Assembly (NCBI GenBank): GCA_022702935.2
Contig: JAKIML020000080.1
Location: forward strand, 1-64,000
Source of the DNA: Bacillota bacterium
GTDB lineage: Bacteria; Bacillota; Clostridia; DSM-8532
DNA: 64,000 bases
Reading direction: 5' to 3'
In this document: positions 10,273 through 22,324 of the stretch, piece by piece
Layout: the number at the start of each line of letters is the position of its first letter
Position numbering within the stretch: position 1 is the first letter of the stretch
Program-made: the position numbers and the translations under genes
Notes under the pieces: model-generated
The model's database searches: none
The model's input: only the letters and a program-made list of their open reading frames with translations
What the model was told of the DNA's origin: nothing

Positions 10273-10380
10273 AAGCCTCGGCAGACAATCCTGAAATTTA
10301 TTGGCACCAGCTAACATAAATTTGAGGTTTATTCCATATATGTTTAATTGGAACTTTTAAATACGAGGGGAGACTTTAAA

Positions 10381-11283
10381 GTGATAATTTATGCAGACCT
10401 TTTGTTCTTTGAAAACCTGCTTGCCAACTGCTTTATTATTAAACTGGCCAGTCTGCTCTCGGGCTGTAGTCTAAAAGTTTTCAAAACCATACTCGCGGCC
10501 TCTGCCGGGGCCCTATATGCCGTATTCGCGGTCATCAAGCCCGATTCGGTAATCCTGGCCTCACCCCTGACCAAGATTGCCTTTTCAGCCCTGATGGCCC
10601 TGATAGCCTTTAAGATAAGAAGTATGCCTGAGTTTTTGAGACGATGGGGCATGATGCTCTTGGCGGCCTTTGTCTTGGCCGGATGTACATTCGCTCTTTC
10701 TACCGTCATGGACGGCGGAGTGATCTCCTATGGCGGCTTGATGTACATTAGCCCACAGGGGACCCTTAAGGCCTTTTTATTCTCGGCCGGTTTATGCATT
10801 GTCCTGGTAAGACCCATAGGGCGCATCCTTTCGGGAAAGGCCATTCGGGAAGGCTCCATTGTACCAGTGCATTTGAGGATCGGCGAAAAATCGGTCAGGT
10901 TCAATGCCCTGATTGATACGGGCAATTCCCTTATCGATCCCTTAACGGGCTATCCGGTTATGGTGGTGGAGGCAGATTCGGTCAGGGATATTTTGCCGCC
11001 CGAAGTCTACTCCTCGGTGAAGTCCAATAATATCGGTCTCTGCACCCAATTGGGCGGGCGGGATGATCAGGGATGGCACAAGCGTGTTCATCTGATACCC
11101 TTTAAATCCATTGGCAAGGAGAATGGCATGCTGACCGGTTTTCGCCCTGATCAGCTCCATGTGATTAAGGAAGGGGCCCTCAAAGAAATCAATGATGTGG
11201 TTGTTGGGGTTTGTGGCATAAAGCTGTCCAACAGCTCGAAATATTCAGCATTACTTGGACCTGCCATGTTAACAAAAATCTAG
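10381..11283 (+). CDS. spoIIGA: sporulation sigma-E processing peptidase SpoIIGA
   Basis: This 300-aa protein has about five hydrophobic helices in its first half and a soluble aspartic-protease domain in the second. The catalytic motif IDTGNSLIDPLTG has Asp at about residue 179, near the known Bacillus position. SpoIIGA sits in the septal membrane and cleaves pro-sigma-E after a signal from SpoIIR. The start is GTG 10381 with AGGGGAGA at 10366-10374. sigE follows 69 nt later, the usual pairing. Confidence 0.92.
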   Translation: MIIYADLLFFENLLANCFIIKLASLLSGCSLKVFKTILAASAGALYAVFAVIKPDSVILASPLTKIAFSALMALIAFKIRSMPEFLRRWGMMLLAAFVLAGCTFALSTVMDGGVISYGGLMYISPQGTLKAFLFSAGLCIVLVRPIGRILSGKAIREGSIVPVHLRIGEKSVRFNALIDTGNSLIDPLTGYPVMVVEADSVRDILPPEVYSSVKSNNIGLCTQLGGRDDQGWHKRVHLIPFKSIGKENGMLTGFRPDQLHVIKEGALKEINDVVVGVCGIKLSNSSKYSALLGPAMLTKI

Positions 11284-11352
11284 CTTCATGGCTTGGCTGG
11301 CTTAAGCAGGACGATAAAGCCTGCATTAAGCCAAGAGGAAGGAGAAGGTATC

Positions 11353-12063
11353 ATGTTTGAAAAGGTTTTCGGATTCATCATTAACCTGGTGAAAAGTCCT
11401 GATATGGAACACAATGAGATTTTCTATATCGGAGGCAATGACATTCTTCCTCCGCCCCTGCAGGCTGAGGAGGAGGCCACCCTGCTGGATAACCTGGAGC
11501 GGGGGGATTTGGCCGTCAAGCGCATACTTATCGAAAGAAATTTAAGACTGGTGGTTTATATCGCCCGGAAATTCGAGAACACGGGAGTGGATATTGAGGA
11601 CTTAACCTCCATCGGCACCATTGGTCTTATCAAGGCCATTAACACCTACAATCCAGGGCGGAATATCAAGCTGGCCACCTATGCCTCCCGATGCATTGAG
11701 AATGAAATACTCATGTATCTGAGAAAGAACAGCCGGGCCAGAAGCGAGGTGTCCTTTGAGGAGCCCCTCAATGTGGATTGGGATGGCAACGAGCTTTTGC
11801 TTTCCGATATCCTGGGAACTGACAGCGATATCATTCAGAGAAACCTTGAGGAGGAGACCGACAAAAAACTGCTGGTCAGCGCCATGAACAAGCTGAGCGG
11901 CCGGGAGAAGCGCATTATGGAGCTTCGATTTGGGCTCAATAATCATCTGGAGAAAACCCAGAAGGAAGTGGCCGACATGCTGGGCATTTCCCAATCCTAC
12001 ATATCACGGCTGGAAAAGCGAATTTTGGGCCGCCTGAAAAGGGAAATATGCAGAATGCTGTAA
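11353..12063 (+). CDS. sigE: RNA polymerase sporulation sigma factor SigE (pro-form)
   Basis: This 236-aa sigma-70 family factor is specific for early mother-cell transcription. The N-terminal pro-segment of about 24 residues is followed by [13 protein letters not shown], which aligns with the cleavage-site region of B. subtilis pro-sigma-E. Region 2 contains [13 protein letters not shown] and region 4 the helix-turn-helix [21 protein letters not shown]. The start is ATG 11353 with a strong GAGGAAGGAGAAGG. Processing is by SpoIIGA upstream. sigG is not next but 8.9 kb away. Confidence 0.95.
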
Positions 12064-12109
12064 GGCAGGGGCACAGATATAAAGCAATGATGATTACAAG
12101 TCCACAGTC

Positions 12110-12137
12110 AAAAGCCTTTGATTGGGGGCTTTTTGTT
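12110..12137 (+). terminator. terminator after sigE
   Basis: Arms AAAAGCC (12110-12116) and GGCTTTT (12127-12133) form a stem that ends in a T-rich tail. Confidence 0.65.
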
Positions 12138-12190
12138 TGCCTGATGGCGCTTATGAAGGCCCTATAGCGGGAATACTTATCCATGCAGTC

Positions 12191-12219
12191 TTGAAAACAC
12201 TGGGGCATAAGTTTATAAT
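12191..12219 (+). promoter_or_regulatory. sigma-A promoter of the polysaccharide locus
   Basis: TTGAAA (12191-12196), a 17-nt spacer and TATAAT (12214-12219) lie 47 nt before the DUF4330 gene. It shows that this locus has its own vegetative promoter, separate from spoIIG. Confidence 0.7.
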
Positions 12220-12265
12220 AAACTAGAATTGCGCTAAACAAATGTTAAATAAAGGAGCTTAACTC

Positions 12266-12760
12266 ATGATAGTTGATGAAAAAGGAAGATTATTTAAGAA
12301 GATTAATCTGCTTGATTTACTCATAGTGTTGATCCTCATTGGTATTGGTGTTGTGGTTTTTTATAAGATGAACAACTCAAAAGTCATCAGTCCCTTTGCA
12401 CAGAAGGATAAGATTGAGACTGTAATCTTCCTGGAAGAGGTTCTGGGCGGAGCTGCTGACAGTATTATTGTTGGCGAACCCGTTCGAGACAGAGCTTCGG
12501 GTGCCCTTATCGGTTATGTTACAAATTATGAAAAGGGTCCCAGTGTCAACTTTGCCACCAGTTCAGATGGTCAGCTTGTTAAGACCACAAAAGAAGGCTA
12601 TAATTCAGTCCGTGTAACCATTGTGGGAACGGGTGTCTATTCTGATTCCCGTGTGGTTTTCGACAATAATGATTACTATATCAATAAGCAGTTCGAGTTC
12701 CTGGTTGGAAACACCTATCTGTACGCTAAAATCGAAAGTATGACCAAGGTTGAGGAGTAA
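12266..12760 (+). CDS. DUF4330 domain-containing protein, single-pass membrane
   Basis: This 164-aa protein opens with the family-typical VDEKGRLFKKINLLDLLIV, in which one membrane helix (about residues 15-34) follows a short cytoplasmic lead. The remaining 130 residues are an extracytoplasmic domain of unknown role. AAAGGAG precedes ATG 12266. It is the first gene of the polysaccharide operon, 5 nt before the Wzy-like gene. DUF4330 genes often sit next to polymer-assembly genes, so a helper role in export or polymerisation is likely but unproven. Confidence 0.8.
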   Translation: MIVDEKGRLFKKINLLDLLIVLILIGIGVVVFYKMNNSKVISPFAQKDKIETVIFLEEVLGGAADSIIVGEPVRDRASGALIGYVTNYEKGPSVNFATSSDGQLVKTTKEGYNSVRVTIVGTGVYSDSRVVFDNNDYYINKQFEFLVGNTYLYAKIESMTKVEE

Positions 12761-12765
12761 TTGAT

Positions 12766-14322
12766 TTGTTCGAGACAAGCTTTTTTGTTAACGTTTTTAA
12801 TAAGGTTGCTCTGTTTATCTCAGTGGTATTTAAAAACAGCCTGATAGGTAGTGCTTGGCAGGCTTTGAAAAAAGTCTTTCAAAAGCTTGCACAAACAAGT
12901 TTTTTCGTCAAACTGGCCAAGCTCCAGTTCAGCAAGTACTCCTTTAATGAAAACAGCCTGCTCTACCGTTGGATGGACAGGCTGATTAATTTCCTTCCAT
13001 GGCTGTTAAAAAAGCTATACGTGAGATTTGAGGCTGCGTTCAAGAACAGCGTTTTGTTCAGAATTGTCGCGTTTTTTGCCCGCAATCTTTCAGCCCTCAT
13101 CGCCTTGTTTATGCTGGTCGTTTTTGTCGTACCGCACAAGACCTCGTTCATTTCGTGGAACAATATGCACACGGCCTATGCGGTCATTCTCTTCTTTATC
13201 CTGTTTATGATTAAAGCCATGATTGAAGAGGACACCCGTATCCAGGTGAAGGCCGTCAATGTATTCTTTTATATCTTTGTCATCATGGTGATTTATGGGC
13301 TGGTGACCTCCTTTAGCTTCAGCCTGAGCCTTCGCTTCTTGGTCTTCCATTTTACCTGTTTTATGCTTGTTTTGATGATGGTCAGCGCTATCAAAACCAA
13401 GGAGGAGCTGACCACTTTTATCGAACTGGTCCTGGTAGGTGCTACCCTCTGCGGTCTCTATGGCCTGTACCAGGCTGTGAAGGGTGTTCCCGTTGATGTT
13501 TCACAGATAGACATTTCCCAGAACGCAGGCGCTCCTGGCAGAATCTATTCAACCTTTGAGAATCCCAATAACTTTGCACAGGTTATGACCATGATGATTC
13601 CCTTCTATGTGGGGGTTATTTTTGGCGCCAAGGGCATTAAGAAGAAGATCATCTTTGTGCTGGCAGCCCTGCCGCCCGTTTTATCCTTGCTTCTGACACT
13701 GTCCCGGACAAGCTGGATTGGGCTGGCGGTTGCAGCCTTTGTTTTCCTTCTGCTCACCCATCCCAAGGTCATTCCCTGGCTCATTGTCTGCGGGGTACTG
13801 CTTCTTCCCGTTATGCCCAGTTATATCATCACGCGTATTGGAACCATCTTTAAGATGAATGATTCCTCCATCACATACCGCTTTAAGATTTTCAAAACCA
13901 TGTGGCCAGTGATAGAGGATTACAGCATTACCGGAATAGGCCTGGGCAATAATATCGTGAGCCAGATTACCAATAACTATCCTATTTACACCGATTACAA
14001 CAAGGTGCCTGTACACTGCCATAATCTCTACCTGCAGGTTTGGGCTGAGATGGGGATTGTGGGCTTAACATCCCTTCTTATGTTCATTGCCGCGACCATT
14101 AAGTCATGTATAGGCAAAGTACGCCGCCTTGGCGAGGACCTGCAGATGAAATATTTCCTGGCATCAGGCGTTGCATCCATCAGTGGGATACTGGTTACTG
14201 CCCTGGGTGAATATATTTGGTTCTATCCCAGAAACATGCTGGTTTTCTGGATGATAGTGGGATTGATGATAGTGGGGCTTAACCTCGCCAGGAACGCCCG
14301 CCATGGGGAGGTCATGGAGTGA
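12766..14322 (+). CDS. O-antigen ligase / Wzy-type polysaccharide polymerase
   Basis: This 518-aa polytopic membrane protein belongs to the Wzy_C/O-antigen ligase superfamily. Diagnostic segments are the loop LTLSRTSWIGLA, GIGLGNN, and VHCHNLYLQVWAEMGIVGL. Such proteins polymerise or transfer lipid-linked repeat units outside the membrane. About 110 residues before the first clear helix bundle form an unusual N-terminal extension rich in Phe, Lys and amphipathic stretches, with FKNS occurring twice. The start is TTG 12766 with TGAGGAG 8-10 nt upstream. Its stop overlaps the flippase start (GTGA). In a Gram-positive it probably builds an exopolysaccharide or wall glycan. Confidence 0.85.
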   Translation: MFETSFFVNVFNKVALFISVVFKNSLIGSAWQALKKVFQKLAQTSFFVKLAKLQFSKYSFNENSLLYRWMDRLINFLPWLLKKLYVRFEAAFKNSVLFRIVAFFARNLSALIALFMLVVFVVPHKTSFISWNNMHTAYAVILFFILFMIKAMIEEDTRIQVKAVNVFFYIFVIMVIYGLVTSFSFSLSLRFLVFHFTCFMLVLMMVSAIKTKEELTTFIELVLVGATLCGLYGLYQAVKGVPVDVSQIDISQNAGAPGRIYSTFENPNNFAQVMTMMIPFYVGVIFGAKGIKKKIIFVLAALPPVLSLLLTLSRTSWIGLAVAAFVFLLLTHPKVIPWLIVCGVLLLPVMPSYIITRIGTIFKMNDSSITYRFKIFKTMWPVIEDYSITGIGLGNNIVSQITNNYPIYTDYNKVPVHCHNLYLQVWAEMGIVGLTSLLMFIAATIKSCIGKVRRLGEDLQMKYFLASGVASISGILVTALGEYIWFYPRNMLVFWMIVGLMIVGLNLARNARHGEVME

Positions 14323-15830
14323 GAACCAAGACATCGCTGTATAACACGGCCTGCGCCATGCTCCTCCAGGTGGTTAACCTGGTGGTGAATCTCATTCTTC
14401 CCCGGGTCATTGTGGATGTTTATGGCTCAGCCGTCAATGGTCTGGTATCATCGATCCGTCAGTTCATCGGTTATTTGAGCATTGTAGAGGCCGGCCTTGC
14501 AGGTGCGGCCGTTTATGCCCTTTATAAGCCCCTGGCTGACAAGAACCATGATAAGATTAATGGCATCCTTTCAGCCTCCAATCGTTTCTACAATATTTCG
14601 GGCTTTATCTTTTCAGCGCTGGTTTTAGTGTCCACCTTTATCTATCCCATGTTTGTCTCAGGACAGGGTGTGGATACCCTGACCATTGCTCTTCTGGTGG
14701 TCATCATTGGTGCTTCGGGAGCCTTTGAGTTCTTTGCCATCGGCAAGTACAAGGTTCTTCTGACGGCCGATCAGCGAAGCTATGTGATTTCCCTGATCAA
14801 TGCCATAGCCATCACCATCAATTCGGTGGTCATTCTTGTTATGGCCAAGCTCGCCTTTGATATCGTGCTGGTGCAATTTGTGGCCATGCTGAGCTTTCTT
14901 TTGCGCTCCTTGCTCTATATCCTCTACTGCCGCAGGCGCTATACCTTCATTAATTATAAGACCGAGCCCGACAACAAAGCGCTGGATAAACGCTGGGATT
15001 CTCTGATACTTCAGATTCTGGGCGTGGTGCAGGTGGGCACCCCGGTCATTGTGACCTCCTTCTTCTGCGGTCTTAATGAGACCAGCGTCTACACCATTTA
15101 CAATATGGTTTTCGCCAGTGTGCTGGCCCTTCTTTCCACCTTTAACAACGGTTTGAGTGCCGCTTTTGGCGACCTTTTGGTCAGAAATGAGCTGGGCACT
15201 CTGCAAAAGGCCTACAAACAATATGAGTTTTTGTATTACGGCTTATTGGGCTGGGGCTATGCCTGCGCGGCCATCCTCATCATGCCCTTTATCAATATCT
15301 ATACAGCCACCTTTACCGATGCCAACTACATCAGGCCTGAAATCGCCTGGCTGTTTGTTGCGGTGGGCGTGCTTTACAATGCCAAGACGCCCCAGGGTAT
15401 GCTGGTCATTTCAGCAGGCCATTATAAAGAAACCAAGCCCCAAACCCTTATCCAGGCCCTTATTAATATTGTGGCTTCGGTGGCCCTGGCCCCTTTCCTG
15501 GGCATGGCCGGTGTGCTTTTGGGCTCGGTTCTGTCAAATCTGTACCGTGTCATTGATCTTGTTGTCTACATACCCAAACAGGTGACAAAGCTTCCAATCC
15601 GTATGACCGTCTTTCGGATCATCCGCATGTTCCTGTTATTCGGAGTTTCGGTGGCCCCCTTTGTGTTCCTGATATCCATTAATGTCACAGGTTATATGGG
15701 GTGGCTGCTCTGGGCCATCATTTCGGGGGGCTGGGCATTCATGGTATTTGCTATAGGCAATATCCTGTGCGAGCTTCGTACCACTAAAGAGATATTCGAA
15801 AGATTGCGTTGGATGATAAAAAAGGCATGA
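14319..15830 (+). CDS. polysaccharide flippase (Wzx/MATE-like)
   Basis: This 503-aa protein is hydrophobic along nearly all of its length with 12-14 likely helices, and begins with the typical MOP-superfamily pattern (RVIVDVYGSAVNGLVSSI, then GLAGAAVYALYKPL). The expected job is to flip undecaprenyl-PP-linked repeat units across the membrane for the polymerase just upstream. The GTG start overlaps the upstream stop by 4 nt, giving tight coupling. The polymerase-flippase pair defines a Wzx/Wzy-dependent pathway. Confidence 0.85.
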   Translation: MRTKTSLYNTACAMLLQVVNLVVNLILPRVIVDVYGSAVNGLVSSIRQFIGYLSIVEAGLAGAAVYALYKPLADKNHDKINGILSASNRFYNISGFIFSALVLVSTFIYPMFVSGQGVDTLTIALLVVIIGASGAFEFFAIGKYKVLLTADQRSYVISLINAIAITINSVVILVMAKLAFDIVLVQFVAMLSFLLRSLLYILYCRRRYTFINYKTEPDNKALDKRWDSLILQILGVVQVGTPVIVTSFFCGLNETSVYTIYNMVFASVLALLSTFNNGLSAAFGDLLVRNELGTLQKAYKQYEFLYYGLLGWGYACAAILIMPFINIYTATFTDANYIRPEIAWLFVAVGVLYNAKTPQGMLVISAGHYKETKPQTLIQALINIVASVALAPFLGMAGVLLGSVLSNLYRVIDLVVYIPKQVTKLPIRMTVFRIIRMFLLFGVSVAPFVFLISINVTGYMGWLLWAIISGGWAFMVFAIGNILCELRTTKEIFERLRWMIKKA

Positions 15831-15851
15831 CTGCTTCATGGAGGTTCCTTT

Positions 15852-16997
15852 ATGTCGGAGAAAAAAGCGGGTATCATCACCTTTCACTATGCCCATCATT
15901 ATGGCGCTCAGCTTCAGGCCTATGCCCTCATGCGGGCCGTGGAGAAGCTGGGTACACCCTGTGAGATCATTCATTATGTCCGGCCCGATACCCTGGAGGG
16001 CAATCGCCTTTTTAAGCGGGGATTATCGCCATATGCCCAGCTTTCAAACCTTCACACACTGCTCCACTACAAGGCTTTTAAAAGACGCTATGACCGATTC
16101 CAGGCGTTTGCGCACCAACGCATGCACCTGAGTGAACGGTTCTATGCAAGTGCCCAGGAGCTTTTTGAAAACCCGCCATGTTATACGGCATATCTCACAG
16201 GCAGCGATCAGGTCTGGAATCCGTTAATCTATAAAGAAAAGACCTATGACCCGGCATTCTTTCTTGGGTTCGCTAATAAAGGCCGAAGAATTGCCTATGC
16301 GCCCAGCTTTGGCATTGCCGAGATACCCGAACACTTAAAAGCACCCCTGGTTAAGTACCTGGAGGGTATGGACGATTTGTCGGTGCGGGAACGCCAGGGC
16401 GAGGCCATTATTCAGGCGCTGACAGGCCGAAAAGCCCTGACAGTGCTGGATCCCACCCTGCTCTTAACCGGTGAGGAATGGGGAGAGGCCGCGGTCTCAC
16501 CCAAACGGGATAAACCCTATATGCTCTGCTATTTCGTGTCCGACTCCACTCCCTTTGAGCCCTATATCAAGGCCATCTCCCAGAAGCTGGGGCTTGATGT
16601 GGTATATCTTGCCGGTGCGAGAAAAGGCATCCCCGGATATGCTAAAATAGTTTATGATGCCGGTCCCTGTGAGTTCCTCGGCGAGTTTAAAGATGCGGCC
16701 TTTGTATGCACCAACTCCTTCCACGGCACTGTTTTCTCAGTGAATAATAAGAAGGGTTTTATCAGCTTTGCGGCAGGATCGGAGAAGAAAACTGTCAATT
16801 CAAGGCTGTACAGCATCTTGGAGCTTTTAGATATCAAGGAACGCCTGGTGGTGGTGGACAAGGCTAAGAGTCCTTCTGCCATTGAACATCCGGCACTCGA
16901 TAGGATTGATTATGACAAGGTTTCGGCCCTTCTTGAAAAGGAGCGGGAAAAATCCCTGACCTATTTAAAAGAGGCGCTGGATAAACAGGACGGTTAA
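15852..16997 (+). CDS. polysaccharide pyruvyl transferase family protein
   Basis: This 381-aa protein has the WcaK/CsaB-family layout: an N-terminal GIITFHYAHHYGAQLQAYAL, the central LTGSDQVWNP, then RIAYAPSFG, LSVRERQG and the C-terminal FVCTNSFHGTVFS. Family members transfer a pyruvyl ketal from phosphoenolpyruvate to sugars of surface polymers. ATG 15852 has GGAGG 10 nt upstream. Members of this family are repeatedly seen beside FrhB-type Fe-S proteins, as here. Confidence 0.85.
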   Translation: MSEKKAGIITFHYAHHYGAQLQAYALMRAVEKLGTPCEIIHYVRPDTLEGNRLFKRGLSPYAQLSNLHTLLHYKAFKRRYDRFQAFAHQRMHLSERFYASAQELFENPPCYTAYLTGSDQVWNPLIYKEKTYDPAFFLGFANKGRRIAYAPSFGIAEIPEHLKAPLVKYLEGMDDLSVRERQGEAIIQALTGRKALTVLDPTLLLTGEEWGEAAVSPKRDKPYMLCYFVSDSTPFEPYIKAISQKLGLDVVYLAGARKGIPGYAKIVYDAGPCEFLGEFKDAAFVCTNSFHGTVFSVNNKKGFISFAAGSEKKTVNSRLYSILELLDIKERLVVVDKAKSPSAIEHPALDRIDYDKVSALLEKEREKSLTYLKEALDKQDG

Positions 16998-17030
16998 CGA
17001 ATGGCCCCATAGGGGATCAGGAGGATGAGT

Positions 17031-18206
17031 ATGCCCGTTTTATGTGAAGAAAGGCTATGTACAGGCTGTGGAGCCTGTGAGAATAAATGTCCCTTCCATG
17101 CTATTACCATGGTTGAAAATGCCGAAGGTTTTTTAACACCCTCGGTGAATCAGGAGCGTTGTAAGGAATGCGGGCTTTGTGAGAAGGCCTGTCCCATTTT
17201 AAAGGATCCGGCATTCCCAAAGCTTTCTGAGCCGGGGGTTTATGCCTGCTGGAGCCATGACAGAGAGATCCGCGAGCTAAGCTCCTCGGGTGGTGTCTTT
17301 TCGCTGATTGCCCGGGAAGTGCTCAAAGAGGGCGGGGTGGTCTTTGGCGCAGCCTTTGATGAGGACTTCGGGGTTCACCATACGTACATAGAAAGTTATG
17401 AGGATATTGACAGCCTCAGGCGCTCCAAGTATGTCCAGAGCAGAACAGGGGACAGCTATAAAGCTGCTGAAGGTTTTCTTAAGGCAGGGCGAAAGGTGCT
17501 CTATGTGGGAACGCCCTGCCAGGTGGCCGGTCTTATTGGTTATCTGGGCAAGCCCTATGAACTGTTGACTACCTGTAATTTTGTCTGCTATGGGGTACCC
17601 TCTCCCAAGGTATGGCGCAATTACCTGTCCTACAGAACCGCCAATAAGAAGCTTAAAGCCCTTTCCTTCAGAGATAAGAAGAACAGCGGCTGGAAACAGT
17701 ATACCCTTCGCATGGACTATGAGGACGGCACAAGCTATGTTAAGAAAGCCAATGATGATGCCTATTTCATTGGATTCGGACGCAGTCTGTTCAGCCGTCT
17801 CTGCTGCTTTGACTGCCGTTTCAGATATTCCAATACCAAGGCCGATATCACCCTGGCCGATTTTTGGGGTATTGAGAAGCTTCAGGGCATCGAGATCAAG
17901 GAAGACCAGGGGGTTTCACTGGTACTGACCAATACACCTCAAGGTGAAGCTTGGATTCAAAGGATCTCTGAGAGGATGTTTATCCAGAAGCGAACCTTTG
18001 AGGAGGCCGCCAGCAGCAATCCCAAGCTTGTCAGCTCAGCCAAGCAGCCTTCCAACAGGGCTAAATTCTTTAAGGATCTCAATGACCAGGTGGATTTTGA
18101 TAGGCTGGTTAAGCGCTATATGAGCAATACAGGGCTCAAATCCGAGATTAAGAAGCTGATAAAAGGCATTCTGGGGGAAGAAACCCTTAAAAAGCTGATG
18201 GGCTAA
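17031..18206 (+). CDS. ferredoxin-FrhB fusion (F420 hydrogenase/dehydrogenase beta-like), copy A
   Basis: This 391-aa protein has two 4Fe-4S motifs at the N-terminus (CTGCGACENKCP and CKECGLCEKACP), then the FrhB N- and C-terminal domains. The latter contain SSSGGVFS, RRSKYVQS, GTPCQVAGL and CYGVPSPKV, plus further cysteines in CCFDCRFRYSN. FrhB domains bind FAD and move electrons between ferredoxin-like clusters and a hydride carrier. Here the partner is a polysaccharide locus, so a glycan redox step is plausible but unknown. ATG 17031 is preferred because AGGAGG (17019-17024) gives 6-nt spacing; the ATG at 17025 abuts it. Confidence 0.85.
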   Translation: MPVLCEERLCTGCGACENKCPFHAITMVENAEGFLTPSVNQERCKECGLCEKACPILKDPAFPKLSEPGVYACWSHDREIRELSSSGGVFSLIAREVLKEGGVVFGAAFDEDFGVHHTYIESYEDIDSLRRSKYVQSRTGDSYKAAEGFLKAGRKVLYVGTPCQVAGLIGYLGKPYELLTTCNFVCYGVPSPKVWRNYLSYRTANKKLKALSFRDKKNSGWKQYTLRMDYEDGTSYVKKANDDAYFIGFGRSLFSRLCCFDCRFRYSNTKADITLADFWGIEKLQGIEIKEDQGVSLVLTNTPQGEAWIQRISERMFIQKRTFEEAASSNPKLVSSAKQPSNRAKFFKDLNDQVDFDRLVKRYMSNTGLKSEIKKLIKGILGEETLKKLMG

Positions 18207-18277
18207 GCCCCTTTGTGCATAAAATCAAAGCACACTGCAAAGACTGTTCTCATCCCATACCCATGGAGGAGAGCGGA

Positions 18278-19459
18278 ATGCTTTGCGAACAGGCCCTTTG
18301 CACGGGCTGCCGTGCGTGCGAGAATAAATGTCCCACCAGGGCCCTCACCATGAAGGAAGATGGAGAGGGCTTTTTACGTCCCTTTCTGGATACCTCCCGC
18401 TGTACCCAATGCGGGTTGTGCAGGTCCACCTGTCCCGTACTGAATACGCCAGCCCAGGCCCCTTCACAGAGGGAGCCGGGGACCTATGCCTGCTGGAGTC
18501 TGGATGAGACCATACGGGAAAGAAGCTCATCGGGCGGGGTCTTTTCCTTGCTGGCCAAAGAGGTGCTCAAGGACGGGGGAGTGGTATTCGGGGCCTCCTT
18601 TGACGAGGATCTGAGGGTTCGCCATACCTATATTGAAGACTTTGAGCAAATCGATGGGCTTCGACGCTCCAAGTATGTTCAGAGTGATACCGGTGACTGT
18701 TATCTGCAGGTGGAAAACTTTTTGAAAGCGGGACGCCCGGTGCTTTTTGTAGGCGCACCCTGCCAGGTGGCGGGGCTGAATGCTTATTTGGGAAAACCCT
18801 ATGAAAATCTTCTGACCCTGAGCTTTATTTGCTACGGCGTTCCCTCGCCCAAGGTCTTTGAGACCTATATCCGCTACCGGGAGGATAAGCATAAGGCCAG
18901 GGCAGCAAGACTTTCCTTCCGGGAAAAGCAGGGCTCGGGCTGGTCTAACTGCGCCATGTGTATTGAATTTGAGGATGGTACGAAACTCCGGCATCCTTTA
19001 AAGCAGGATCCCTACTTCGTGGGCTTTGGCAGACATCTGTTTACCCGCCCTTCCTGCTTTGAGTGCCATTTTCGTTATCCCAATATCTTCTCGGATATGA
19101 CCCTGGGGGATTTTTGGGGGGCCGACAAATTGGAGGGACTCAAGGCCAATGACGACAAAGGGGTGTCCCTGGTTCTGACCCATACCCCAAAGGGGGAGGA
19201 AGGCTTAAAAAGGATTGCGCCCCATCTCTTCATCCAGAGAAGGAGCTTTGAGGAGGCCCTGAAATATAACCCCAGGCTTAAGTCATCCTCAGCATGCCCG
19301 CGCAACCGATCACGATTCTTTGAGGAATTTGCCCAGGACACTGATTTTGAGCGGCTTATCCGCCGCTATATGACCAATACGGGCTGGAAGGCCGGGCTGA
19401 AAAAAACAATAAAAGCCCTTCTGGGCGAAGGGCTTATTCACAAGCTTCGAAGAGGATAA
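18278..19459 (+). CDS. ferredoxin-FrhB fusion, tandem paralogue copy B
   Basis: This 393-aa protein is colinear with copy A and clearly paralogous, sharing CTGCRACENKCP, CTQCGLCRSTCP, SSSGGVFSL, LRRSKYVQS, PCQVAGL, ICYGVPSPKV, DFWGADKLEG and the tail RRYMTNTGWKAG. All eight ferredoxin cysteines are kept. The start is ATG 18278, 6-8 nt after GGAGGAG; a GTG at 18215 would add 21 residues without a matching site. Two diverged copies suggest different partners or a heteromeric enzyme. The substrate is unknown. Confidence 0.85.
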   Translation: MLCEQALCTGCRACENKCPTRALTMKEDGEGFLRPFLDTSRCTQCGLCRSTCPVLNTPAQAPSQREPGTYACWSLDETIRERSSSGGVFSLLAKEVLKDGGVVFGASFDEDLRVRHTYIEDFEQIDGLRRSKYVQSDTGDCYLQVENFLKAGRPVLFVGAPCQVAGLNAYLGKPYENLLTLSFICYGVPSPKVFETYIRYREDKHKARAARLSFREKQGSGWSNCAMCIEFEDGTKLRHPLKQDPYFVGFGRHLFTRPSCFECHFRYPNIFSDMTLGDFWGADKLEGLKANDDKGVSLVLTHTPKGEEGLKRIAPHLFIQRRSFEEALKYNPRLKSSSACPRNRSRFFEEFAQDTDFERLIRRYMTNTGWKAGLKKTIKALLGEGLIHKLRRG

Positions 19460-19506
19460 AATTCAAGAACGGCGAATATGCAAAGCGCAAGATTGAGCAT
19501 GAACAA

Positions 19507-19532
19507 CTTCCTGCGCCGAGGACCGCAGGAAG
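19507..19532. terminator. hairpin between convergent genes
   Basis: A perfect 9-bp inverted repeat (CTTCCTGCG / CGCAGGAAG, 8-nt loop) lies between the FrhB copy B gene and the convergent GT4 gene. It could block transcription from both sides, but neither side has a T-run, so intrinsic termination is uncertain. Confidence 0.4.
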
Positions 19533-19566
19533 ATTAGAACATCGTCGTTAATAAAGTCCAGCTAAT

Positions 19567-20658
19567 CTATTTCTCCGCGGTATAGACCCCATAGGTTGCT
19601 TCGGCCACCTTGTGAATATTGAATCTGTTCTCCACGGCTCGGTAGGCCTTTTCTCTCAGCTCATCCAGCCGGGAGCGATCCTCCATAAGCACTTTAATGG
19701 TCTGAGCGGTGCTTGTGGGGTTGTTATACTCCACCAAAACCCCGCACTGGGTTTCCTCGTTGATAATGTCCCTGTTGCCGCCCATATCGGTGGCCACCAC
19801 CGGCAGACCACTGGCCAGGGCTTCTACGATGAGAAAGCTCAAGGCCTCATGCTCCGAGGCGTTAAAATAGAGGTCGCTGCCATTGAAGAGATTCTTTATA
19901 TCAGGTCTGAAGCCTATGAACACAATATCCGAGGTAAGATTCAAATCCTCAACCTTCTTTTTGGTCTGCTCAAGCAGAGGACCGTCTCCCGCAAGGATAC
20001 ATTTAAAGGGGATGGAGGTCATGGATTTTAAAGCCTTCATGGTATCCACCAGATAGGCGTGCCCCTTATCATGGGCAAATCGGGAGGCACAGAGGATGAC
20101 AAAGGTCCCATCGTCGATGCCCAGCTCCTTGCGCAGGGTGGAGGGCTCTTGCTTCCTCCAGCCCTCGGGATCCACCCCATTGAAGATCACCTTGATAATT
20201 GACCCCTTGTTACCGTTTTTGATGAGCATGTCCTTGCCTTTATTGCATACGGCAATGATCCGGAACTGGAGCCGGGTCATAATCCGATTAAAGAAACGGA
20301 TGGAACGGGGATTTTCCATGATAAAGTGGTTGGTGTAGACCACCCTGACCTTGGGATTAAAGAGCCTGGACAACAGGGCAATATAATTCTCCCTGAGATA
20401 ATGGGTGTGAATCAGATCAATGTGATATTCCTTGCAAAGCTTACTGAGCTTGAGGGCTGCGGCCAGGTCAAAGGGGTGCTTCATGGCTATTCTGAAGGTT
20501 TTAATCCCCTTGGCCTCCAGAGTCTCTCTGAGCAGGCCGTCTTCATTATAGGCAAAAAAGGCGTTGATTTTAGCCGGACACAATTCCTCAATCAGTGTTT
20601 GGACATATCTTTCGGTTCCGGCTTTTCCGGCGTGATTCAACAGGTAGAGTATGTTCAT
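19567..20658 (-). CDS. glycosyltransferase family 4
   Basis: This 363-aa GT-B enzyme shows the GT4 pattern: an N-terminal LLNHAGKAGTERYVQTL, the acceptor-side HTHYLRENY, the linker VIFNGVDPEGW, and the donor-site segment SEHEALSFLIVEALASGLPVVATDMGG with the EX7E glutamates. Such enzymes transfer sugars from nucleotide-sugar donors onto lipid-linked glycans in the cytoplasm. GGGAGA precedes the start. It is read toward the polysaccharide operon on the opposite strand and is separate from its transcript, but probably serves the same polymer. Confidence 0.85.
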   Translation of the reverse strand: MNILYLLNHAGKAGTERYVQTLIEELCPAKINAFFAYNEDGLLRETLEAKGIKTFRIAMKHPFDLAAALKLSKLCKEYHIDLIHTHYLRENYIALLSRLFNPKVRVVYTNHFIMENPRSIRFFNRIMTRLQFRIIAVCNKGKDMLIKNGNKGSIIKVIFNGVDPEGWRKQEPSTLRKELGIDDGTFVILCASRFAHDKGHAYLVDTMKALKSMTSIPFKCILAGDGPLLEQTKKKVEDLNLTSDIVFIGFRPDIKNLFNGSDLYFNASEHEALSFLIVEALASGLPVVATDMGGNRDIINEETQCGVLVEYNNPTSTAQTIKVLMEDRSRLDELREKAYRAVENRFNIHKVAEATYGVYTAEK

Positions 20659-20848
20659 AGCTCGTCTCCCGGTTATCTTCCAATTATCATTTTAAACCAA
20701 ATCCCTGAATTAATTCATTATCATGATATAGCAAATCCTTTGAAAATGAAAGCTATGGAAGAAAAATGGAAGATATTTCAAAGTCTGCTTCTGATGGCTG
20801 AAATCCGCTTGTCAAGGCCTTTTTAAAATATTTCTCTCCGAAAACTCA

Positions 20849-20877
20849 GAATAAAACATACCCGCCGGGACAACAAT
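20849..20877 (+). promoter_or_regulatory. candidate sigma-F promoter of sigG
   Basis: GAATA (20849-20853) and GGACAACAAT (20868-20877), 14 nt apart, resemble the forespore consensus (-35 about GyATA, -10 about GGnnAnAnT). sigG is transcribed by sigma-F in Bacillus. The element lies about 50 nt before the coding start. Confidence 0.45.
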
Positions 20878-20925
20878 GTTATCTGTACCAACCAGATGAC
20901 GGCAAAGAGAGGTGTGTTGATTTTG

Positions 20926-21693
20926 ATGAACAAGGTTGAGATTTGCGGTGTCAATACATCACGATTACCATTGCTCTCCAGCAGCAAAATGGACGAGCTG
21001 TTCAAGAAGATCAAGGCCGGTGACAAGAGTGCTCGGGAGGAGTTCATACAAGGCAATCTCAGACTGGTATTAAGCGTCATCCAGAGATTTGGCAACCGGG
21101 GAGAGAATGCGGATGACCTTTTCCAGGTCGGGTGCATAGGCCTCATCAAGGCCATAGATAATTTCGACGTCACTCAGAACGTCAAGTTTTCCACCTATGC
21201 CGTACCCATGATTATCGGTGAAATCAGACGCTATTTAAGAGACAATAACCCTATTCGGGTGAGTCGTTCGCTGAAGGATACGGCCTACAAAGCCCTCCAG
21301 GCTCGGGATAAGCTGATCAGCAAGGAGTCCCGGGAGCCCAATGTCACTGATATAGCCAAGGAGCTGGGGATCAGCAAGGAAGATGTCGTCATGGCTCTGG
21401 ATGCGATACAGGAACCCATATCCCTCTTTGAATCGGTATACCATGATGGCGGGGACGCCATCTATGTCATGGATCAGGTTAAGGATGACAAAAACAGCGA
21501 TGAGAAATGGCTGGAGAGTATCTCCATCAATGAGGCCATGAGCAAGCTCAGTGAAAGAGAAAAACGGATTGTGGATTTACGATTTTTCCAGGGAAGAACA
21601 CAGATGGAGGTGGCCGAGGAGATCGGCATTTCCCAGGCCCAGGTGTCTCGCCTGGAGAAATCGGCTTTAAAGCATATGCAAAAATACGTTTGA
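20926..21693 (+). CDS. sigG: RNA polymerase sporulation sigma factor SigG
   Basis: This 255-aa late forespore sigma factor begins MNKVEICGVNTSRLPLL, almost identical in pattern to B. subtilis SigG. Region 2 has DDLFQVGCIGLIKAIDNFD and VKFSTYAVPMIIGEIRRYLR; region 4 ends with EVAEEIGISQAQVSRLEKSAL. ATG 20926 fits the homology; the RBS AGAGAGG (20906-20912) is 13 nt away, so the in-frame TTG codons at 20917 or 20923 could also be used. It has its own upstream signals and terminator, consistent with its separation from spoIIGA-sigE. Confidence 0.93.
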   Translation: MNKVEICGVNTSRLPLLSSSKMDELFKKIKAGDKSAREEFIQGNLRLVLSVIQRFGNRGENADDLFQVGCIGLIKAIDNFDVTQNVKFSTYAVPMIIGEIRRYLRDNNPIRVSRSLKDTAYKALQARDKLISKESREPNVTDIAKELGISKEDVVMALDAIQEPISLFESVYHDGGDAIYVMDQVKDDKNSDEKWLESISINEAMSKLSEREKRIVDLRFFQGRTQMEVAEEIGISQAQVSRLEKSALKHMQKYV

Positions 21694-21694
21694 G

Positions 21695-21722
21695 AGAAGC
21701 AAGAGAACCTTGCTTCTTTTTT
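21695..21722 (+). terminator. terminator after sigG
   Basis: A 9-bp stem (AGAAGCAAG / CTTGCTTCT) with a 5-nt loop is followed by six T. Confidence 0.85.
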
Positions 21723-21871
21723 ATGTTACTGTTTTTTTTAAGTTAGCAATGCAGTCTTTTACCCAATATTGAGTTAAGCGTTTCACAAATTACTAGAAAT
21801 AGAAAGGTATTTGTAATAAAATACCGATAGATAGAATGATAAACTAAATGAAGGTACGGAGGATAAAGCTC

Positions 21872-22324
21872 ATGAAATGTCCTTATTGCTCATTTCAAGA
21901 AGATAAGGTAATCGACTCAAGACCGACTGACGAAGGGGCGACAATAAGGAGAAGGCGAGAATGCTTAAACTGCCATAAGCGTTACACCACTTATGAGAAA
22001 GTAGAGAGCCTCCCCATTATGGTTGTGAAAAAGGATGGTTCCAGACAACCCTATGACAGGGAGAAGGTTCGCAAGGGCATCTTAAGAGCTTGTGAAAAGC
22101 GTTCCATATCCATCGATCAGATTGAAAATGTTTTGGATTCCATTGAGGCACAAATCAGCAATTCCCTTGAAAGAGAAGTGACCAGCTCCATGATTGGTGA
22201 AATGGTCATGGATAAATTAAGGGAGCTGGATGAGGTGGCATATGTGCGCTTTGCCTCGGTCTACAGACAATTTAAGGACATCAATACCTTTATGAACGAA
22301 TTAAAGCTCTTACTGGATAAATAG
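21872..22324 (+). CDS. nrdR: transcriptional repressor NrdR
   Basis: This 150-aa protein has the family length. It carries an N-terminal zinc ribbon (CPYC, then [12 protein letters not shown]) and an ATP-cone domain ([20 protein letters not shown]). NrdR senses ATP/dATP and represses ribonucleotide reductase genes. ATG 21872 with ACGGAGGA 8 nt upstream was chosen over an in-frame ATG at 21848. It is followed 13 nt later by the DegS-like kinase, so the repressor is cotranscribed with a two-component system. No nrd gene lies in the window. Confidence 0.95.

Follow-up and report, generated by a model that had tools for sequence, protein, structure and literature searches.

Lactyl (1-carboxyethyl) ethers occur in several bacterial polysaccharides. 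In UDP-N-acetylmuramate synthesis, MurA and MurB produce such an ether through enolpyruvyl transfer from phosphoenolpyruvate (PEP) and subsequent flavin reduction. Polysaccharide pyruvyl transferases (PPTs) normally form pyruvate ketals, with no reductase involved. Here, we describe a locus within a 64,000-nucleotide stretch (the window) of a Clostridia genome (Bacillota bacterium, contig JAKIML020000080.1), which carries sporulation genes and is 99.98% complete. At this locus, a PPT gene is followed by two tandem genes of the FrhB family (FrhB1 and FrhB2; Table 1). A PPT accompanied by a dedicated reductase led us to suspect a reduced product, namely a lactyl ether. In our judgement, there is about an even chance that PPT and FrhB are consecutive enzymes that attach a lactyl ether to a sugar within a lipid-linked glycan at this locus.

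The resemblance to MurA and MurB lies in the proposed logic only, as the folds are unrelated; MurB uses NADPH and the MurA/MurB acceptor is UDP-linked, whereas FrhB has [4Fe-4S] clusters and the PPT/FrhB acceptor is assumed to be lipid-linked. The ketal transferases CsaB and WcaK share with the window PPT the family PF04230 and presumably a PEP donor and a lipid-linked acceptor, but they lie outside the FrhB-linked PPT profile described below and have no FrhB partner. By profile, the window FrhBs belong to the same family as 7-hydroxymethyl chlorophyll a reductase (HCAR; 5dqr) and the F420-dependent FrhB, FpoF, and Fsr, from which they differ in their S-G-G motif and glycan neighbourhood and in having neither chlorophyll nor F420. 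Compared with HCAR and BciB, ferredoxin-dependent FrhB-type reductases that combine FAD with [4Fe-4S] clusters, the cluster cysteines are invariant and the profile matches 5dqr, a likeness at the sequence level. In the glucolactilic acid systems of Shigella boydii type 17, Shigella dysenteriae type 3, and Escherichia coli O124, two genes are concerned, as far as the accessible parts of the sources go, and the O124/O164-type cluster contains an FrhB and a PPT of the window's PPT subfamily. These systems differ in serving a Gram-negative O-antigen and in an FrhB that lacks the second [4Fe-4S] motif and is remotely similar to those of the window.

Coupling of FrhB genes to pyruvyl transferase genes

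The coupling of FrhB to PPT is firm. Across the family (32 genomes), 14 FrhB domains were counted, of which 12 had a PF04230 match no more than 2.3 kb away, as judged by two independent Pfam models; the two exceptions (in G001 and G028) lie near contig ends. In the class, 117 of 137 immediate FrhB neighbours were used for a census of 80 neighbour families; PF04230 was the top family (27 neighbours), followed by polysaccharide flippases and glycosyltransferases, and no hydrogenase family was present among the 25 commonest. Six single genes fuse the two domains, three as PPT-FrhB and three as FrhB-PPT; therefore, fusion arose at least twice. Separate pairs less than 3 kb apart were almost always on the same strand (53/54), and 30 of the 54 were within 50 bases of each other (loci examined, not all of which are independent). 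Of the 44 genomes that encode an FrhB-linked-subfamily PPT, 39 also have FrhB (Fisher p = 2e-26; 245 class genomes), a figure that is partly circular because 13 of the 18 PPT alignment rows came from these genomes and were picked for FrhB proximity; without these 13 genomes, the ratio was 26/31. The pairing was also observed in Bacteroides finegoldii (two loci), Pseudobutyrivibrio xylanivorans, and Dinoroseobacter shibae, and at a distance of one gene in Ruminococcus albus. These neighbourhood statistics, which a preliminary description of the window had named as a check, place the relatives in glycan loci with PPTs and not with hydrogenase subunits, supporting its suggestion of a redox step in glycan assembly. 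That description had also placed the FrhB genes with a pyruvyl transferase, a flippase, and a polymerase; the first and last were confirmed by PF04230 and Wzy_C matches, while the flippase-like gene had no Pfam or NCBIfam match.

The window PPT scored 99.9 bits for PF04230 (gathering score 25.3) and matched no NCBIfam model. A profile of FrhB-linked PPTs was built from 13 Clostridia PPTs located near FrhB, with the window PPT included and enteric sequences all left out. Its scores were 261, 232, 223, and 211 bits for the PPTs of O69, O124, IAI1, and the enterobacterial locus L144, respectively, and 229 bits for a nitroreductase-linked plasmid PPT, compared with ≤14 bits for CsaB-type proteins and no match at E 10 for WcaK. 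The PPTs of D. shibae and of one B. finegoldii locus (L056) were missed by this profile, and more than one PPT branch therefore has an FrhB partner. For the FrhB core, with the ferredoxin part removed, the Clostridia profile gave 167–301 bits for Bacteroides, 37–75 bits for proteobacterial proteins, ≤41 bits for solved F420 enzymes, and 28 bits for 5dqr.

Other arrangements were also observed. One 20 kb glycan region (L163, G257:C10) holds four PPT-FrhB modules, with five FrhB matches on the contig, and adjoining short PPT and FrhB fragments (L281:3234-6867) probably represent a decayed module. In the window's own genome, one more PPT belongs to the FrhB-linked subfamily (L238:6162-7283, G000:C13; 165 bits) and lies in a Wzy-PPT-flippase-GT2 locus without FrhB. 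At L275:3197-5227, a GT2-PPT fusion, as read from the sequence, has no FrhB nearby, which suggests that some PPTs of the subfamily may act with a glycosyltransferase alone.

Enteric glycan clusters and the lactyl-ether chemotype

E. coli O124/O164 was chosen as the test case for the lactyl-ether idea ahead of any look at the loci. The FrhB genes of two Enterobacteriaceae (L144 and L145) were searched by blastn in 5426 E. coli genomes, a search that more diverged genes may escape. Full-length FrhB was found in 17 genomes: the locus was an IAI1-type galF-gnd cluster in eight, O69 in three, O124/O164 in five, and a plasmid in one; one further plasmid carried a partial FrhB. A PPT was present in all four kinds of locus. 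The O124/O164-type galF-gnd cluster, labelled according to the RefSeq naming of its wzx and wzy, has the order wzx, FrhB, PPT, GT2, GT32, wzy, GT2, glf, GT2. Its sole genes without a role in transport, polymerization, or glycosyl transfer, or as glf, are FrhB and PPT, leaving these two as the candidates that would account for a lactyl ether.

According to the accessible parts of the sources, one Shigella dysenteriae O-antigen contains 4-O-[(R)-1-carboxyethyl]-D-glucose (PMC10609480), a list of E. coli O antigens identical to those of Shigella includes O124 and lacks O164 (PMC5723341), and the O124 and O164 clusters are 98–99.9% identical (PMC4732683). In addition, the title of a 2006 article (Senchenkova), as given in the reference list of PMC5643014, refers to two genes for glucolactilic acid in Shigella boydii type 17; two-gene lactyl-ether synthesis in Shigella is probably already in print. 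Our literature text searches found no paper that links FrhB or coenzyme F420 hydrogenase to a pyruvyl transferase, and no statement of a lactyl-ether role for the FrhB family in general. The preliminary description had called the reaction undefined, and the E. coli cluster comparison narrows it, pointing to conversion of a pyruvyl-derived group into a lactyl ether as the probable reaction. In the four O124/O164-type loci examined, the PPT was intact in WEC and VL7S7 and split into two annotated parts in TUM18780 and DETEC-C31, with identical FrhB (L217:13095-14230, L221, L222, and L223), which is a natural test. The intact and split PPTs possibly correspond to the difference between O124 and O164.

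Klebsiella capsules offer a further comparison. Pyruvyltransferase genes are reported in four pyruvate-free capsule types (K8, K22, K37, and K66), and two nitroreductase genes and one 'coenzyme F420 hydrogenase' gene are counted among 1515 genes, in the portion available of a capsule survey (PMC4616057). According to the accessible text of PMC7246685, 4-O-[(S)-1-carboxyethyl]-D-glucuronic acid is a component of the K22 capsule and, acetyl aside, the sugars of K37 are the same. With the exception of K8, the capsule data appear to agree with the formation of lactyl ethers.

The E. coli plasmids carry small loci flanked by insertion sequences, with a flippase, a reductase, a PPT, and a GT2 gene beside a broken wzc; these are apparently mobile glycan-modifying modules. 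The slot between flippase and PPT is occupied by FrhB in one of them (L218) and by a nitroreductase-family protein (PF00881) in two others (L219 and L220), whose flippase-reductase-PPT order is the same and whose PPT belongs to the window's subfamily. FrhB and nitroreductase are apparently exchangeable reductases because the latter fills FrhB's slot. With a profile that started from the plasmid protein, no nitroreductase was found near FrhB-free Clostridia PPTs in the 15 loci searched.

Proposed reaction and alternative explanations

In the proposed reaction, PPT would use PEP to attach an enolpyruvyl group to one hydroxyl, halting before ketal ring closure; alternatively, it may make a pyruvate ketal that is opened afterwards by reduction. 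CsaB has a lipid-linked sugar acceptor, uses PEP as donor, and exchanges the PEP vinyl protons (PMC6030368, accessible parts), as protonation of PEP followed by hydroxyl attack would predict. The released enolpyruvyl ether would be a substrate for MurB-like reduction, and FrhB, as a flavin enzyme, would reduce it to the lactyl ether. Ferredoxin, the electron source of HCAR, is also the likeliest donor here, and the two [4Fe-4S] clusters would pass its electrons on to the FrhB flavin.

More broadly, and tentatively, the FrhBs of F420-less bacteria in surface-glycan loci (Clostridia, Bacteroidota, and Proteobacteria) may be the reductase half of a second MurA/MurB-type solution, in which they would build lactyl-ether sugars on lipid-linked glycans together with dedicated PPTs and be exchangeable with nitroreductase-type flavoproteins; we see this as a serious possibility that falls somewhat short of even. 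If it is true, the label 'coenzyme F420 hydrogenase beta subunit', given to many genes in F420-less bacteria, is wrong, and a large share of such genes would allow a lactyl ether to be predicted from sequence, just as pyruvate is at present predicted from PPT genes. A reaction would also be assigned to an FrhB branch so far without one, the PPT genes of the pyruvate-free Klebsiella types K22 and K37 would be explained, and the biosynthesis of lactyl-ether sugars would become testable with two purified proteins.

Several points weigh against the lactyl-ether proposal. For the glycan of the source organism, a lactyl ether is a prediction. The enteric FrhBs are remote, scoring 37–68 bits on the Clostridia core profile compared with ≤41 bits for solved F420 enzymes (for the O124 FrhB, 46.9 compared with ≤41.3 bits), and they have lost the second ferredoxin cluster motif, as has the D. 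shibae FrhB; the FrhB half of the enteric analogy thus appears weaker than the PPT half. The argument from the O124/O164-type cluster assumes that its four glycosyltransferases suffice, and it takes O124 to be equivalent to S. dysenteriae type 3. Our literature search found no polysaccharide chemistry for O69 or for the IAI1-type cluster. Among the capsules, K66 is taken to carry a lactyl ether, and K8 has a PPT but no pyruvate and is not known to have a lactyl ether. Moreover, at a distance limit of 5 kb, 31 of 76 FrhBs had no PPT of the subfamily, and FrhB was missing beside 19 of the 64 subfamily PPTs found in 44 class genomes (two FrhB rows under the cut-off, G130:C28 and G137:C372, were excluded from the count). 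Some of these FrhBs are accompanied by a PPT from a different subfamily (for example, L150 and L199), and some sit at contig ends.

The unpaired genes are in line with a rival explanation, in which FrhB reduces or oxidises a different part of the glycan intermediate, be it a keto-sugar or its polyprenyl carrier, while PPT independently adds a plain pyruvate ketal, the two being neighbours merely through shared glycan loci. The FrhB of Alloyangia pacifica (L061), around which no PPT was recognised over 8 kb in each direction, favours this explanation, as do the plant relatives of FrhB, which reduce a group of chlorophyll (5dqr, by profile). We nevertheless consider separate roles unlikely, since the fusions in both orders, the tight same-strand pairs, and the rank of PF04230 as top neighbour argue for coupling to PPT specifically. 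Furthermore, the ketal formers WcaK and CsaB-type proteins, which belong to another subfamily, have no adjoining FrhB, and in the O124/O164-type cluster it is FrhB and PPT that remain for the lactyl ether. A role as F420-dependent oxidoreductase or as beta subunit of a hydrogenase or formate dehydrogenase is suggested by the Pfam and RefSeq family names and by the PF04422 and PF04432 domains themselves, but it seems extremely improbable. The absence of an F420-hydrogenase context, pointed out for the window in the preliminary description, holds genome-wide: the genome has two PF04432 domains in all and no CofD over the cut-off (best match 22.1 bits, cut-off 257.45), despite its near completeness. 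FrhB1 reached 42.3 bits against the NCBIfam FpoF model, for which the curated cut-off is 475, and scores were likewise far beneath the FrhB cut-off. No partner subunits of hydrogenase or formate dehydrogenase adjoin the FrhB genes in the window, and the genome's one NiFe-hydrogenase-family match (PF00374) is partial (70/508 positions) and located on another contig. All 17 aligned glycan-locus FrhBs share S-G-G in place of the D-G-G or N-G-G of three solved F420-type sequences. An F420 enzyme identity was rejected on the basis of the CofD and FpoF scores and the lack of hydrogenase families among the commonest neighbours. The distribution of PF04432 is patchy, with 11 of 32 genomes in the family, 57 of 245 in the class, and 2 of 392 in Enterobacteriaceae.

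The presence of two FrhBs might instead reflect an obligate heteromer or two successive steps, as the preliminary description had suggested from the duplication. Both copies are intact and full-length, with Fer4, PF04422, and PF04432, and they are 58% identical over 390 amino acids. Across 20 aligned sequences (both copies and 18 relatives), the eight ferredoxin cysteines never vary, nor do C165, C188, C261, and C264 of the FrhB part, so both copies look functional, and the earlier report of two full-length paralogues that retain all ferredoxin cysteines and FrhB blocks stands. G002 also has a PPT-FrhB-FrhB arrangement, though its FrhBs share merely 33–37% identity with those of the window. 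Against these observations, an otherwise equivalent six-gene system in four sister-genus genomes (L186, L188, L189, and L190), with another gene order, has a single FrhB; a fifth sister-genus locus (L194) is too short for judging the FrhB number. Identities between the window and the sister-genus system were 64–65% for the flippase-like protein, 53–55% for PPT, 45–50% for FrhB, 40–42% for Wzy, 38–43% for DUF4330, and 38–40% for GT4. FrhB1 and FrhB2 are reciprocal best matches among the FrhBs compared (58%, compared with ≤50% to any other) and hence in-paralogues. Because the sister-genus system has one FrhB and the two copies match each other best, the duplication is judged to be recent and lineage-specific, and the system does not seem to require a second copy. 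The earlier suggestion is therefore not upheld, and we rate a heteromer or two-step scheme as quite improbable; within the proposed PPT-FrhB pathway, the second FrhB probably serves dosage or a second acceptor rather than as an obligate partner. The predicted structure of FrhB1, obtained from the two window sequences, had a mean pLDDT (predicted local distance difference test) of 46.8, too low for fold searching.

A glycan island at the sigE-sigG junction

The PPT, FrhB1, and FrhB2 open reading frames, all intact and on the + strand, belong to a glycan island between sigE and sigG (Table 1). The island has been inserted at a junction of core sporulation genes, since sigE and sigG are only approximately 100–215 bases apart in nine of the ten other genus genomes in which a single contig carries both. 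The tenth (G001, L234:2698-9424) has a different insert of 6.7 kb with TRAP/SSF transporter, AtuA, and GntR genes; the junction thus carries two different inserts, the other being the glycan island (window 12063-20896).

Table 1. Features of the glycan island and its borders in the window.
Feature	Position	Strand	Evidence and remarks
spoIIGA-sigE	10348..12063	+	Core genes, left border of the island; TIGR02854 over cut-off; sigE 84–91% identical in genus
Promoter-like site TTGAAA-17-TATAAT	12191..12219	+	11/12 consensus match; 47 bases 5' of the DUF4330 gene
DUF4330 membrane-anchored protein, 164 amino acids	12266..12760	+	First gene of the island; PF14221 2.3e-21; one hydrophobic segment; conserved with the system in sister genus
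O-antigen ligase/polymerase-like protein (Wzy_C)	12766..14322	+	PF04932 4.2e-23; 13 hydrophobic segments
Flippase-like polytopic membrane protein	14319..15830	+	10 hydrophobic segments; 64–67% identity to sister-genus homologues (tblastn)
PPT, FrhB-linked subfamily, 381 amino acids	15852..16997	+	PF04230 PS_pyruv_trans 3.2e-28; subfamily profile; proposed enolpyruvyl/pyruvyl transferase
FrhB1, 393 amino acids	17025..18206	+	Two-cluster ferredoxin domain (Fer4), PF04422, and PF04432 (4.4e-18); proposed reductase
FrhB2, 414 amino acids, GTG start	18215..19459	+	Fer4, PF04422, and PF04432 (5.5e-19); tandem in-paralogue of FrhB1
Terminator-like stem, 9 pairs	19507..19532	-	Between the convergent FrhB2 and GT4 genes
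GT4 glycosyltransferase	19567..20658	-	PF00534 2.7e-34; member of the conserved island; 38–40% identical to GT4 of the sister-genus system
sigG-nrdR	20896..22324	+	Core genes, right border of the island; SigG by NCBIfam, synteny

The promoter-like site was the top-scoring one in the region, and such sites were no commoner than in shuffled sequences; the terminator-like stem is weak evidence, with 14 such sites found compared with 10.8 in shuffles. Outside the island, at 740-2984, the window contains both DUF4956 and CotH kinase genes; the two are also found together near the FrhB locus of a Pseudobutyrivibrio plasmid (L057:1-2028), where they are accompanied by a polyphosphate polymerase gene.

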